NCBI GenBank assembly: GCA_900473045.1
Contig: UCKS01000028.1
Location: forward strand, 1 to 64,000
Source: Hyphomicrobiales bacterium
GTDB taxonomy: Bacteria > Pseudomonadota > Alphaproteobacteria > Rhizobiales > Rhizobiaceae
Reading direction: 5' to 3'
Length of the DNA stretch: 64,000 nucleotides
Shown one piece after another: positions 29,373 through 40,310 of this stretch. The notes beneath the pieces were generated by a model. It was not told the origin of the DNA. It saw only the letters and a program-made list of their open reading frames with translations, and did not search any database. A program made the position numbers and the translations under genes. Each line of letters opens with the position of its first letter. The first letter of the stretch is position 1.

Positions 29373-29523
29373 CGAAAAAGCCTGCCGCGGGAGGAGGTGC
29401 GGCAGGCTTTAAAAACTCGAACAGCGACCGGGAGGAGGAGTGCCGCTGTTCTTTGAGGGCATCCCTGGGAGGAGGATGGGATGCCCAACCCGAAGCGGTG
29501 CGGGAGGAGGTGCACGGCTTCGA
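29373..29523 (-). ncRNA. Array of four CCUCCUCCC-loop hairpins (alpha-r14 / cuckoo / CcsR-type small RNA)
   Basis: On the minus strand, four successive stem-loops each expose CCTCCTCCC, the anti-Shine-Dalgarno sequence (GGGAGGAGG on the plus strand at 29389, 29430, 29467 and 29502). Stems: 29491-29501/29512-29522 (one mismatch), 29457-29465/29478-29486 (9 bp), 29419-29426/29444-29451 (8 bp) and 29378-29389/29399-29410 (12 bp). The last is followed by a T-run and is a rho-independent terminator, fixing the strand and 3' end. Known alphaproteobacterial RNAs of this type (NfeR1/alpha-r14, cuckoo RNAs, Rhodobacter CcsR) usually have two or three such loops. I could not define the promoter. Confidence 0.8.
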
Positions 29524-29978: not shown

Positions 29979-30054
29979 TGGTGGGCCCGGAGGGACTCGA
30001 ACCCCCAACCAAGCGGTTATGAGCCGCCGGCTCTAACCATTGAGCTACAGGCCC
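29979..30054 (-). tRNA. tRNA-Ile2 (anticodon CAU)
   Basis: Complete cloverleaf on the minus strand with encoded CCA. The acceptor stem begins GGGCCTG, the D-arm is AGCTCAATGGTTAGAGC, and the anticodon loop is CTCATAA. The pattern GGCGGCTCATAACCGCTTGG matches tRNA-Ile2, whose CAU anticodon is modified to lysidine by TilS, rather than initiator or elongator Met tRNA. Confidence 0.92.
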
Positions 30055-35001: not shown

Positions 35002-36126
35002 CTAGTCCTCTCCTAATTCAACCAAGTGATTGAGGCTTTCAGAATCGGCTCCGTGAATTACCCGCTGGGTGAACGCTGCCAACTCCATGCCATATGCCTC
35101 AAACAGCTCCTTGCACCCCAGGCCATTGGCCACGTGAAATGGTTTCCTCCACATCGCATGTTTTGTCGCGTAGAGGTCTAATACTCTGCGGCGGATCGTG
35201 GCGTTTATGGCATCGGGTGTGTTCCACCCAGTGGTGAAGACAGGTCGCTGTGCAATCGATTTTGCTAAAGACTTGATCCGAAGTAGATCGAGGTTCTGGT
35301 TGTTGAAGCCAAATCCCAAGAAGATAAGTTGGCTGCAGTGTTCAACGGCGTCGTGGATTTTTTTAATCGCTTGGTCATCCTGCATTCGTTCAGTGTAGGT
35401 GCGGATCGACTTGCCAACTTCGAAAGGGTCAAAACGATGGTCGAGTTCAGGTCCGAACGGCAACAATCCTGGCCCATAACCGATTAGCCCCTCGGGCAGT
35501 GTTCCGAGCGTGCCGTATGGATGGATGATATTCATACGATAGACGATGTCATGAGCGTCGCTTCGCGTGATCCTAAAGGCTTTAATCAACGCTTCGCGAA
35601 GGTAGAACTCTATACACCGGTCGTAGTTAAAACAGATGATGCTAACGTCGTTGCCGACCAATTGAGGGTCCTCTACGCCGTCTAATAGAATGCGGAGGAA
35701 AGATCCTATCCACGTTTGGTCCAAGTCAGACCGGTCCAGCCCTTGACCCATCTCTTCCGACATGAACATCGAGCTGCCCCGTTCAGCCTTCGCGATCTCC
35801 AACGCGATCAGCGCTTTGCCCATCTCCTCGATCGCACTGTCGCTACGATGACGGTGGATGAAAGCATCAATGCTCACGGCCGTGAAGATGCCGCTGTGAA
35901 TCGCGTCAAGTGCGCTTGAACGTGATTGTCGATCCGTGATGTTGGGAAAACGCCCCAGAAGCTTGTCAGCAAAGAAATCGTCACCGAAGCGTTGTGTTTG
36001 TCCGTAGCTACCGTGCCGAAATAAGGCGCTTTCTTTAATACGCTTGGCAAGACCTGCACCCGCAGGAAGGCCAAATTCGGTGCTTGCACCTGCACCTATG
36101 ACAAACGTTGTATTGCGTCGAAACAT
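35002..36126 (-). CDS. SIR2-like domain protein, candidate NAD+-consuming defence effector
   Basis: A 374-residue protein with SIR2-superfamily features in order: TTFVIGAGASTEFGLP (residues 6-21, nucleotide-binding), FNYDR (166-170, catalytic-type Asn167), HPYGTLG (202-208, candidate catalytic His202) and IFLGFGFNNQN (268-278). It lacks the zinc-finger Cys pairs of classic deacetylase sirtuins. This layout fits SIR2_2-type defence effectors such as those in Thoeris or SIR2-HerA, which degrade NAD+ to abort infection. It leads a two-gene operon with the HEPN-like gene, in an island beside prophage genes. The defence role is inferred. Confidence 0.75.
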   Translation of the reverse strand: MFRRNTTFVIGAGASTEFGLPAGAGLAKRIKESALFRHGSYGQTQRFGDDFFADKLLGRFPNITDRQSRSSALDAIHSGIFTAVSIDAFIHRHRSDSAIEEMGKALIALEIAKAERGSSMFMSEEMGQGLDRSDLDQTWIGSFLRILLDGVEDPQLVGNDVSIICFNYDRCIEFYLREALIKAFRITRSDAHDIVYRMNIIHPYGTLGTLPEGLIGYGPGLLPFGPELDHRFDPFEVGKSIRTYTERMQDDQAIKKIHDAVEHCSQLIFLGFGFNNQNLDLLRIKSLAKSIAQRPVFTTGWNTPDAINATIRRRVLDLYATKHAMWRKPFHVANGLGCKELFEAYGMELAAFTQRVIHGADSESLNHLVELGED

Positions 36127-36249
36127 GCAGTGAGTCTCCGTGGATTCGGAAGATCATTACGCTTAAAACGTGCAAGTCCAAGTGACTGTTCATTGCTAAT
36201 CCACATAACGGTCCTCCCAATGCCTGCCTGCAGCAAAGCAACTCAAACA

Positions 36250-36275
36250 TGAGGCGCCGGATTAGCGGCGCCTCA
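36250..36275 (-). terminator. Hairpin downstream of the C5 methyltransferase
   Basis: Perfect 10-bp inverted repeat (36250-36259 / 36266-36275), 8 nt past the methyltransferase stop on the minus strand. The T-run is weak. Confidence 0.55.
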
Positions 36276-36283
36276 AGGGGCAT

Positions 36284-37195
36284 TTAAAGCGACTTCAAAT
36301 GGGCAGCTTTGAGAGTTCGCCACGCATACGCTGCAGCCAGACTGACCACTCCGTTACCGGCCGCGTCGGATCGGTCCATCCGATCGGCCATCCCATGATC
36401 CAGTCCGAAAAGCTCGGGTTGAAGCTCAGGTCGTTGATCGAGGATCGGGGCCCAGCGTTCAAAGTGAGATGGAGGGGGCGGGAATGAGGGAAGCTGAATG
36501 GTTCCGTCGGCCGAGCACCGCAGGCCTTCATCAGCATCCAGATTTGCGTCCAGAGCCTTGCCACCTTCCCCAGGGCCAGTTGTGATCCTGTCTGGCTCGG
36601 ATCGTCCCTCAGTCGAAAGCAACCGTCCACCAGCTCCATCTCGATCTTGTTGCAATAGAGGGACTTTGTTGGAGTGGGCCACAATGAAGAGCCTTCGCCG
36701 AATATGGCTCGCACCGGTTTCGAGCGCGCTGAACAGGCCCGCTTTGACCGCAAAGCCCATTCCCTGAAGGTCCCTGAAGACGGCGTCGGCTCCCAGGGAC
36801 ATGTGCCCTTCGACGTTTTCGAAGAAACACCATTCCGGGTCGAGATCTTCGATGATCCGTCCGATGTGTGGCCAGAGGTGCCTGGGATCGTCTTCGCCCC
36901 GCCGCAGTCCGGAGAATGAAAACGGCTGGCAGGGATATCCGCCAGTGAGGATATGAACCTTGCCACGCCACGGGCGGCCGTCGAAGGTGGTAACATCATC
37001 CCAGACAGGCGCTTGATCCAGGGCTTCGTCTTCCATCCTCGCCACGAGGGTGGCTGCAGGGAAGGCTTCCCGCTCGACGTAACAAACAGTGCGATATTCG
37101 GGTTCTGCGATGTGCAGGCCGAGCTCCAGTCCGCCGACGCCGGCGCAAAGGGCAATTCCGTTGAGAGTATCATTTCGGGAGGTACGTAGAGCCAC
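36284..37195 (-). CDS. Phage-type DNA (cytosine-5) methyltransferase
   Basis: A 303-residue C5 methyltransferase: motif I LCAGVGGLELGL (about 16-27), motif IV GGYPCQPFSFSG with the catalytic Cys (about 84-95), motif VI ENVEGH near 126 and motif VIII-like IRRRLFIVAHS near 165. The target-recognition region is short. No restriction endonuclease is adjacent, so it is a solitary, probably protective prophage enzyme. Its 5' end overlaps the upstream com-like gene by 26 nt, suggesting translational control. Confidence 0.88.
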   Translation of the reverse strand: MALRTSRNDTLNGIALCAGVGGLELGLHIAEPEYRTVCYVEREAFPAATLVARMEDEALDQAPVWDDVTTFDGRPWRGKVHILTGGYPCQPFSFSGLRRGEDDPRHLWPHIGRIIEDLDPEWCFFENVEGHMSLGADAVFRDLQGMGFAVKAGLFSALETGASHIRRRLFIVAHSNKVPLLQQDRDGAGGRLLSTEGRSEPDRITTGPGEGGKALDANLDADEGLRCSADGTIQLPSFPPPPSHFERWAPILDQRPELQPELFGLDHGMADRMDRSDAAGNGVVSLAAAYAWRTLKAAHLKSL

Positions 37196-38519: not shown

Positions 38520-40103
38520 TCACATCGCCGCCCTATCCATCGGAAACAGCGGAGCCCCGGCGGTGATCGTCGCTCCGGCCAAATACGGACGCCGACTGTC
38601 ATCCCCCTCTTGCAACCCGAGCTTTTGCAACAACTGGGCGCAGACTGATGGCATGAACGGGGCGAGTGCCGCGGCGATGATCTGAAGCGTCCAGGCGATG
38701 CTGTAGAGGCTGTCGTTCAGGCGGTTGGCTGCCTCCTGTCTTTCATCCGCCGTCTGCGCCACCGCCACCGCCTTGGCATGCGCCCATGGCTGCTGATCGG
38801 CGACATATTTGTTGGCCTCGGCCACTAGCTTCCAGATCGCATCCAGCGCCCGGTCGAAGGCATAGGCGTTCAGATGGGCGGTGACGGTTTCCGGCAGGCC
38901 GAGCGCCTGCGGGATCAGCGGATCGTGTTCAGCAAATTCTGGCGATGGTTCGCACAGGGTACCGCCGCAATAGCGTTCGATCATGCTCAGCGCGCGGTGG
39001 ACAAGGTTTCCAAGCTGTCCGGCCAGTTCGGATTTGTAGGCCTTCTCGAAACGCTCGAGCGAGATATCGCCGTCTTCCGTCGTGCGGATATGGCGCAACA
39101 GAAAGTAGCGCAGGGCGTCCGTGCCGAAGCGTTGGGCATAGACGGTTGGGTCGATGGCGTTGCCGAGCGATTTGCTGATCTTGCGGCCTTCTGTCGTCAG
39201 ATAGCCATGGACGAGGATGCGGGTCGGCAAAGGCAGGCCGGCCGACAGCAGAATGGCTGGCCAGTAGACCGCGTGAAACCGGGTGATGCCCTTGCCGATG
39301 ACATGGTCGCGGGCACCTGTTCCTGTCCAATAGCGTGCGAGCCCCGCCTCATCGCTGCCGTAGCCCAGTGCCGTGATGTAATTGGCGAGCGCATCGAACC
39401 AGACATAGATCACCTGGCCGGGATCGCCGGGAACCGGGATGCCCCAGCCCCGCGCCCGTTCGGCACTTCGCGAAATGCTGAAATCTTCCAGACCGCGCTC
39501 GATCAGGGCGGAAATCTCGTTCTGGCGGGCATGCGGCACGACCCTGATCGTGCCCTTCCTATAGAGATCGCGCAGCCGGCCGGTATAGTTCGACAGGCGG
39601 AAGAACCAGTTTTCCTCCTCGATCTCTTCCAGCGGCGCATCATGTTCGGGGCAGCGGCCGTCGATCAGTTCATCGGGCCTGTAGAACTGCTCGCAACCGA
39701 CACAGTAAAGGCCCTTGTAGGACCGTTTGTAGATATCGCCGTTGTCGCAGCACATCTGCCAGAGCTTTGTCACGCCCGGAGTGTGGCGAGGGTCGACGCT
39801 GGTGCGGATGAAGTCGTCATAGGAGAGGTTGAGGCTTTTGGGCAAAGCCTGGAAACGCGCGGCGTTACGCGCAACGAAGTCTGCGACGCTGTCTCCTGCA
39901 GCCTCCGCTGCCCGGACATTCTTGATGCTGTTCTCGTCGGTTCCGGCCAAAAAGCGCACGTCCTCCCCCCGCTGCCGGTGGAAGCGGGCGAGCGTATCGG
40001 CCTGGATGACTTCGAGCGCAAAGCCCAGATGCGGGGCGGCGTTGACGAACGGGATGGCGGTGGTGATGTAGCGGACCGGCGAACGATTGGCTGTTTGGGT
40101 CAA
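38520..40103 (-). CDS. metG: Divergent second-type methionyl-tRNA synthetase
   Basis: Charges tRNA-Met. The 527-residue class I synthetase has the HIGH-type PHLG motif near residue 25, a zinc knuckle CVGC...CPEH (about 130-150), the KMSKS-type KISKS near 300 and an anticodon-binding helical domain. The start is a TTG at 40103 with GAGGAG 8 nt upstream; no ATG exists nearby. It stands alone, not in the tmk-holB-metG-tatD context usual in rhizobia, and its sequence differs clearly from my recollection of the alphaproteobacterial housekeeping MetG (CxxC knuckle, PFVNAAPHLG). It is therefore probably a second, inducible synthetase. Upstream lies a Met-codon attenuator (see 40144-40310). Confidence 0.88.
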   Translation of the reverse strand: MTQTANRSPVRYITTAIPFVNAAPHLGFALEVIQADTLARFHRQRGEDVRFLAGTDENSIKNVRAAEAAGDSVADFVARNAARFQALPKSLNLSYDDFIRTSVDPRHTPGVTKLWQMCCDNGDIYKRSYKGLYCVGCEQFYRPDELIDGRCPEHDAPLEEIEEENWFFRLSNYTGRLRDLYRKGTIRVVPHARQNEISALIERGLEDFSISRSAERARGWGIPVPGDPGQVIYVWFDALANYITALGYGSDEAGLARYWTGTGARDHVIGKGITRFHAVYWPAILLSAGLPLPTRILVHGYLTTEGRKISKSLGNAIDPTVYAQRFGTDALRYFLLRHIRTTEDGDISLERFEKAYKSELAGQLGNLVHRALSMIERYCGGTLCEPSPEFAEHDPLIPQALGLPETVTAHLNAYAFDRALDAIWKLVAEANKYVADQQPWAHAKAVAVAQTADERQEAANRLNDSLYSIAWTLQIIAAALAPFMPSVCAQLLQKLGLQEGDDSRRPYLAGATITAGAPLFPMDRAAM

Positions 40104-40143
40104 TGGCGGAACTCCTCGGAAAGGTTTCGGGAGGCGGTTCCAC

Positions 40144-40233
40144 AAAAAAAGCCGCCTCGGATGAAGCGGCTTGGGCGTCTGGCGATATTATCTCAGATCA
40201 CGCAAAAGGGTCCGCTTCTCGGATGGAGAGCGG
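40144..40233 (-). promoter_or_regulatory. Predicted Met-codon transcription attenuator of metG
   Basis: On the minus strand three competing helices are visible. Segment 1 (CCGCTCTC, 40233-40226) directly follows the three Met codons and pairs with segment 2 (GAGAAGCGG, 40220-40212). Segment 2 (GAAGCGG, 40218-40212) is also perfectly complementary to segment 3 (CCGCTTC, 40169-40163). Segment 3 (AAGCCGC, 40172-40166) pairs with segment 4 (GCGGCTT, 40155-40149) to form a terminator followed by seven T (40150-40144). A ribosome stalled on the Met codons would cover segment 1, allow 2:3 and block termination. The logic is that of trp-type attenuators. Confidence 0.75.
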
Positions 40234-40275
40234 CATCATCATGCGCGAAAGCGTGTTGATCGGCAGATTGGTCAT
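40198..40275 (-). CDS. Met-rich leader peptide of the metG attenuator
   Basis: A 25-codon reading frame, MTNLPINTLSRMMMPLSIRE followed by ADPFA. Met codons 12-14 (40242-40234) are consecutive and sit immediately before segment 1 of the attenuator. The predicted transcription start coincides with the A of the ATG, so the mRNA would be leaderless, as reported for rhizobial trpL. The stop codon lies between segments 2 and 3, as in classical leader peptides. Confidence 0.7.
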   Translation of the reverse strand: MTNLPINTLSRMMMPLSIREADPFA

Positions 40276-40281
40276 GGGTTG

Positions 40282-40310
40282 AGATAAAACACGCGGAGGT
40301 GACCTGTCAA
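40282..40310 (-). promoter_or_regulatory. Sigma-70 promoter of the metG leader
   Basis: Minus strand TTGACA (40310-40305), 17-nt spacer, TTATCT (40287-40282). The predicted +1 is 40275, the first base of the leader-peptide ATG. The -35 box is a perfect consensus match and the spacing is optimal. Confidence 0.75.

Follow-up and report, generated by a model that had tools for sequence, protein, structure and literature searches.

What controls the methionyl-tRNA synthetase (MetRS) gene metG2, which lies on the minus strand of a 64,000-nucleotide stretch of a Hyphomicrobiales bacterium genome (hereafter the window), and could its expression be set by a ribosome that reads methionine codons? Leader-peptide attenuators have been described for Trp, His, Leu, Ile/Val, Phe and Thr; a Met attenuator is paradoxical, since every peptide also begins with Met. 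A first-pass annotation of the window proposed such a device upstream of a gene that it took for a second MetRS. From the anatomy of the locus, its conservation, its association with one MetRS subfamily and its switching in silico with ribosome position, we conclude that this region very probably contains a ribosome-mediated transcription attenuator that reads Met codons and controls an auxiliary MetRS.

The identity of the downstream gene was borne out. metG2 (38520-40103, minus strand) encodes a 527-aa protein from a TTG start, preceded at a distance of 8 nt by a Shine-Dalgarno (SD) sequence, AGGAG (40112-40116). The protein matches NCBIfam TIGR00398 above its cut-off; as expected of an attenuator that reads Met codons, the gene downstream thus acts in methionine metabolism. 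Another MetRS gene, 45% identical to metG2, is found on contig C46 of the same genome, and it has no Met-run leader within 300 nt (locus L002).

Upstream of metG2, the minus strand from 40310 to 40144 contains each element that the annotation had described. A candidate promoter consists of TTGACA (40310-40305), a 17-nt spacer and TTATCT (40287-40282), and it ends 6 nt before a leader ATG at 40275. A promoter scan did not list this promoter (40282-40310), since its TTATCT fits the E. coli -10 pattern poorly; its support comes from conservation rather than from the scan, as the arrangement TTGACA-17-TTATCT/TTATTT-6-ATG is kept in 5/5 window-type loci (the window counted among them). The ATG, at the predicted +1, opens a 25-codon frame (40198-40275) that would encode the peptide MTNLPINTLSRMMMPLSIREADPFA from a predicted leaderless transcript, and codons 12-14 (40234-40242) are the three consecutive Met codons that we designate the sensor codons. 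Segment 1, CCGCTCTC (40226-40233), begins with the next base after the Met run. Segment 2, GAGAAGCGG (40212-40220), can pair with segment 1 or with segment 3, AAGCCGCTTC (40163-40172), and its core GAAGCGG (40218-40212) forms a perfect 7-bp helix with the segment 3 core CCGCTTC (40169-40163). Segment 3 pairs either with segment 2, as an antiterminator, or with segment 4, GAGGCGGCTT (40158-40149), which together with the rest of a seven-T tract reaching 40144 makes up the downstream half (40144-40158) of an intrinsic terminator; helices 1:2, 2:3 and 3:4 are thus mutually exclusive. Helix 3:4 has 10 pairs, the largest number at any of the six terminator-scan sites in the 38-42 kb interval; the count of six sites is itself close to what chance would give (expected 4.0, sd 1.9). 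The RNA from 40266 to 40146 folds with -43.8 kcal/mol (z -3.6), and equal stability was reached in 0/200 shuffles.

These helices switch with ribosome position when the leader is folded in silico. The 3' edge of a ribosome lies 15 nt past the first P-site base, and we set it there in these calculations. When any one of the three Met codons is occupied by a ribosome, the RNA as far as segment 3 has its lowest energy as the antiterminator (-18.7). Placed at the leader stop codon, a ribosome covers segment 2, and with no ribosome helices 1:2 and 3:4 (the terminator) form. In the full-length RNA the terminator is more stable even with a stalled ribosome, and the choice between antiterminator and terminator would therefore have to be kinetic.

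We examined the spread of metG2 among 101 genomes, comprising the window's own and 100 relatives. Four species of the window's genus have the gene with 85-89% identity, and it was also present at 60% in a member of another family (G097), at 51% and with one TGA in frame in a further genome of the same genus (G001), and split over two frames in another family (G064). In the last case (L105, 1501-3023) the metG2 pieces are 72% and 57% identical although the leader and hairpins look intact; either the gene is disrupted or the sequence contains an error. In all seven relatives, metG2 is preceded by a Met-run leader and by a terminator-like hairpin. The leader ends in MMMPLSIREADPFA in the window type and reads MISNVSTIISTMMMPLSILEAERFGM in G064, MPTHPASSSRFTMMPLSQIEVARVVV in G097 and MNKNATNATMMMPRS in G001. 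Within the genus metG2 is sporadic, occurring in 6/26 genomes (E up to 1e-128). A sample of 397 genomes of the order gave nine matches at E up to 1e-120, three of the metG2 kind (G000, G097 and G479) and six MetRS at 44-46% identity without a leader. Among 289 genomes of the class, metG2 was found nowhere except in the window's own genome.

Plasmids also carry the system. Six copies (L151-L156), drawn from 10 of the 34 plasmid records found, occur in Rhizobium, Sinorhizobium and Agrobacterium and are 50-53% identical to metG2; five of their leaders end in MMMPRS, MMMLRS or MMMPRL, and that of L156 is MMMPSRKSGGFCAW. There are three Met codons in each of the six plasmid copies, in the other four window-type loci and in G064, G001 and G479, and two in G097. 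In Rhizobium sp. T1473 and Agrobacterium vaccinii, plasmids carry MetRS2 pieces without the 5' part (L159, L160), which suggests turnover of metG2 on plasmids.

Two RNA models, R1 and R2, were run over 297 genomes of the window's family. With the E limit at 0.01, there were matches to R1 in 28 genomes and to R2 in 120, and the weak ones among them were not counted. Above background, R1 found only G000, G011 and G024, all three in its training alignment; R2 found only G1240 clear of background, and this genome was absent from its training. The latter locus (L195), found by R2 alone, scored 76.5 bits against 30.6 for the next best, and it has, by eye, the leader MNWNLINVTMMMLRS followed by a metG2 that is 52% identical.

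Beyond the rhizobia, a Met-run leader was found in 21/80 loci from a named genome collection, among the matches listed, and 20 of these are actinobacterial (examples: MITLSPQHWMMPRRRGC, MICAPTRRMMRPSRGC and MFERTHQALMMALVPGPVGVR). For an overall count we set aside 25 repeat loci, two other class I synthetases (L003, L004) and the two plasmid pieces without a 5' end (L159, L160), and we scored as a leader any frame that has at least two adjacent Met codons beyond its start and lies 100-190 nt upstream, a range chosen after inspection of the data. Such a leader was present at 38/131 distinct MetRS places, upstream of metG2-type MetRS, in agreement with the conservation of the Met run that the annotation's reading predicts. 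The other 93 places had a Met run in 0/93 cases at 100-190 nt and in 3/93 elsewhere within 300 nt. From their sequences, these observations support an attenuator common to rhizobia, on chromosome and plasmid, and to Actinobacteria.

The leaders follow one branch of the MetRS family. In an 81-row MetRS tree of 37 leader rows (L105 left out) and 44 of the 93 others, picked for spread, 36/37 leader rows fell in one group free of leader-less rows (SH-aLRT 80, not starred), with alphaproteobacterial and actinobacterial parts each at SH-aLRT 99. The leader label changes twice on this tree, compared with 27 changes in shuffles. The remaining row, L031 (Candidatus Aegiribacteria), has a Met run, yet it lies outside the leader group, where its branch is long and its neighbours are two rows that have no leader. 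A later sample of 296 actinobacterial genomes yielded four new MetRS (L161-L164). In an 86-row tree, L161 and L162 fall inside the leader group (support 93), as does L195, and L163 and L164 fall outside. By eye, L161 and L162 have the leaders ...RRMAMPSPG... and ...TRMRMPVLP..., with Met-x-Met instead of a Met pair, so that the criterion behind the 38 would not admit them; no Met run was seen by eye upstream of L163 or L164. Adjacent Met codons thus occur in 37/39 leader-group rows of the 86-row tree, and the remaining two are L161 and L162. In the later samples (296 actinobacterial and 297 family genomes, with stricter filters), no strong match stood before another gene.

Residues 25-28 of metG2 are HLGF instead of the class I HIGH motif, and HxGF replaces HIGH in 30/38 leader-bearing MetRS compared with 6/93 others. 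Searched with a MetRS family model, 10/12 carrier genomes proved to have one or more additional MetRS genes or large pieces of one, which makes metG2 auxiliary in most of those genomes; single MetRS remained in G108 and G115. We dropped an earlier candidate reading, in which metG2 was the sole MetRS (15/25 genomes at first), on the result of this search. The metG2-type MetRS is a so far uncharacterised auxiliary subfamily, and the distribution of leaders among the sequences supports an attenuator tied to this one subfamily rather than to metG in general.

The spacing between promoter and leader is likewise conserved. TANNNT ends 5-8 nt before the candidate leader start codon in 23/38 loci, whereas 1000 random shifts gave 0.5 loci on average and never more than 3. 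These 23 are 22/22 actinobacterial rows and L105; the five window-type loci, in which six bases separate TTATCT or TTATTT from the ATG, stand outside this count. Loci with MMMPRS-like leaders show nearly but not exactly leaderless spacing, no -10-like site at leaderless spacing was found in L089, and L031 has an SD-like AGGAG rather than such spacing. Promoter spacing therefore supports the prediction, made for the window by the annotation, of a leaderless transcript that would start at the leader start codon.

Might the Met run and hairpins be fortuitous, or act in the DNA itself, for example as an operator? Chance Met runs do exist, as the 3/93 other MetRS places show. We consider this explanation extremely improbable, given that a Met run or Met-x-Met was present in all members sampled from a MetRS group that spans two phyla, that the promoter-start distance is fixed in many loci, and that pairing is kept with different sequences.

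The pairing itself was assessed locus by locus. In many loci of Actinobacteria, a first automatic hairpin search read the antiterminator as helix 1:2, and it was redone with compact-hairpin limits; the automatic choice of helices is still doubtful in L012, L013, L016, L017, L024 and L158. Helix 1:2 starts 0-1 nt past the Met run in 34/38 loci, in a search limited to 0-5 nt. Its mean stability was -8.8 compared with -2.7 for shuffles in seven alphaproteobacterial representatives and -8.2 compared with -5.3 in 15 actinobacterial ones, with hairpins weaker than the shuffle mean in L012 and L017. The covariation that the annotation's reading predicts was seen in part. Pairing 2:3 is stronger within than between loci overall (0/5000 permutations, a test that mixes groups differing in composition) and within the seven alphaproteobacterial representatives (84/20000 permutations), but it is not significant within the 12 actinobacterial representatives alone (1820/20000). 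In the window group of five sequences, 2:3 is paired in 35/35 cells, compared with 29-64% when slid by 1-3 columns; its one double and one single change were equalled in 105/500 column shuffles, which places its covariation at chance, and 3:4 is fully paired with no change on both sides.

Most actinobacterial terminator-like hairpins have no T tract, and the output step may therefore differ there. This feature bears on an alternative in which the output is translational: a hairpin would hide the SD of metG2, pairing of segment 4 would free it, and the leader would sense Met-tRNA or translation in general. In the window, a hairpin between the terminator and metG2 (40104-40140, minus strand) does hide the SD, with unexceptional stability (z -1.05). 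Folding predictions leave little of the SD unpaired (mean unpaired 0.26 in 32 of the 38 loci, three having been excluded beforehand and three having no recognised SD), and in a permutation of all 38 loci segment 4 finds a partner past the terminator more strongly within a locus than between loci (2/5000). This pairing (4:5) is not locus-specific within groups, however (alphaproteobacteria 18790/20000, Actinobacteria 1802/20000), making segment 4 available raised SD exposure in 6/32 loci and lowered it in 2/32, and the window terminator has its seven T. On this evidence we regard translational output as unlikely. A second, translational tier, in which segment 4 and a fifth segment free the SD, was tried as a separate candidate, having appeared promising on inspection and in the permutation of all loci, and was rejected when it failed both within groups and in an ensemble calculation.

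A further alternative is that the function lies in trans, with the leader peptide or the terminated RNA as its product and attenuation secondary. Sinorhizobium meliloti offers a precedent, in that the trp attenuator's leader peptide peTrpL and the attenuator RNA rnTrpL are described as acting in trans (PMC7298713). In the loci studied here, the peptide differs between groups beyond the Met run and adjacent residues while the Met run and hairpin are kept, and we consider a primary role in trans very unlikely.

We therefore favor transcription attenuation, for which we propose the following course of events. Transcription would start at or next to the leader AUG. When charged elongator Met-tRNA is plentiful, a ribosome translating the leader would pass the three Met codons, reach the stop codon and cover segment 2, and the 3:4 terminator would then form and end transcription before metG2. 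The presumed physiological signal is scarcity of charged elongator Met-tRNA, brought about by methionine starvation or by a housekeeping MetRS that is inhibited or overloaded. Under scarcity the ribosome would stall on the Met codons and cover segment 1, segments 2 and 3 would pair, the terminator would not form in time, and read-through would allow metG2 to be transcribed. A point against this scheme is that the leader start needs initiator Met-tRNA, which is also charged by MetRS, and a severe shortage of Met-tRNA should therefore also block leader initiation and switch the device off. With about 40 loci and one genetic partner, the way in which cells discriminate a shortage of elongator Met-tRNA from one of initiator Met-tRNA becomes directly testable.

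Other features of the window were recorded. The sole tRNA gene found in it (29979-30054, minus strand) was called tRNA-Met (CAT) by ARAGORN, and its anticodon arm resembles that of tRNA-Ile2 of the lysidine type. Near this gene lies an Rfam match to ar14, an alphaproteobacterial sRNA (29373-29493, minus strand; 106.8 bits). At 35002-37195 (minus strand), a SIR2-like match below the Pfam cut-off adjoins a C-5 cytosine DNA methylase gene, and the two may together form a small locus for defence or modification.

How does the proposed device compare with known systems? T-box riboswitches of MetRS genes couple tRNA-Met charging to synthetase transcription, and they differ from the window device by binding the tRNA directly with no leader peptide. 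At gathering scores, Rfam gave no match of any kind, T-box and SAM riboswitches included, either in the window leader region or in a scan of 12 loci; with E relaxed to 10, the window leader region had one weak match, to isrK (11.9 bits). Methionine-related RNA control is described in rhizobia for metA and metZ of S. meliloti, by SAM-II riboswitches that, unlike the window device, sense SAM (PMC9373788). For Actinobacteria, a 2005 survey that included synthetase operons describes T-boxes of ileS as well as structures for genes of Trp, Cys and Leu, with none for methionine operons in the sections drawn on here (PMC1262725). In Streptomyces lividans, a survey gives leaders for leuS, thrS, alaS and trpS, with none for a MetRS gene in the same table, and it proposes a Met-containing leaderless leader peptide, metL, upstream of metNIQ (PMC8079986). 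As presented there, metL differs from the leaders described here in having scattered Met residues with no run, no typical terminator, and a transporter operon rather than a MetRS gene downstream. Searches of an open-access library found no Met-codon attenuator of MetRS; subscription journals were mostly outside this scope, and an earlier description is possible. Two reviews (PMC12123629, PMC11467909) are, in the parts drawn on, unrelated to Met-codon attenuation of MetRS.

The trpL attenuator of S. meliloti, which is leaderless and controls trpE(G) (PMC7298713, PMC10117765), resembles the window device in being rhizobial, in a transcript that begins at the leader ATG (a prediction in our case), in consecutive sensor codons, and in exclusive structures with a terminator. 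It differs in sensing Trp and in controlling trpE(G).

By analogy, the window attenuator is most likely the Met counterpart of the trpRS1 case of Streptomyces. That gene reportedly encodes an auxiliary, antibiotic-resistant TrpRS under ribosome-mediated transcription attenuation at Trp codons. In both cases, an auxiliary synthetase would be controlled by attenuation on codons of its own amino acid. We know of no inhibitor of metG2-type MetRS. A backup role of metG2 under MetRS stress is likely, and the analogy with the Trp case may point to natural MetRS stress in soil. More tentatively, and in our judgment conceivable rather than probable, the MetRS subfamily and its elongator-Met-tRNA attenuator might together form a mobile, self-contained Met-tRNA alarm that travels across phyla and on plasmids, stays off as long as the resident MetRS works, comes on when that enzyme fails, for instance under a natural MetRS inhibitor, and acts as a band-pass sensor. 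Because starting the leader takes initiator Met-tRNA, such a sensor would respond only where undercharging affects the elongator tRNA and spares the initiator. TrpRS1 of Streptomyces is associated with indolmycin resistance (PMC9437257). Unlike the trpRS1 case, the metG2 device uses Met codons and MetRS, and it is present in rhizobia too.
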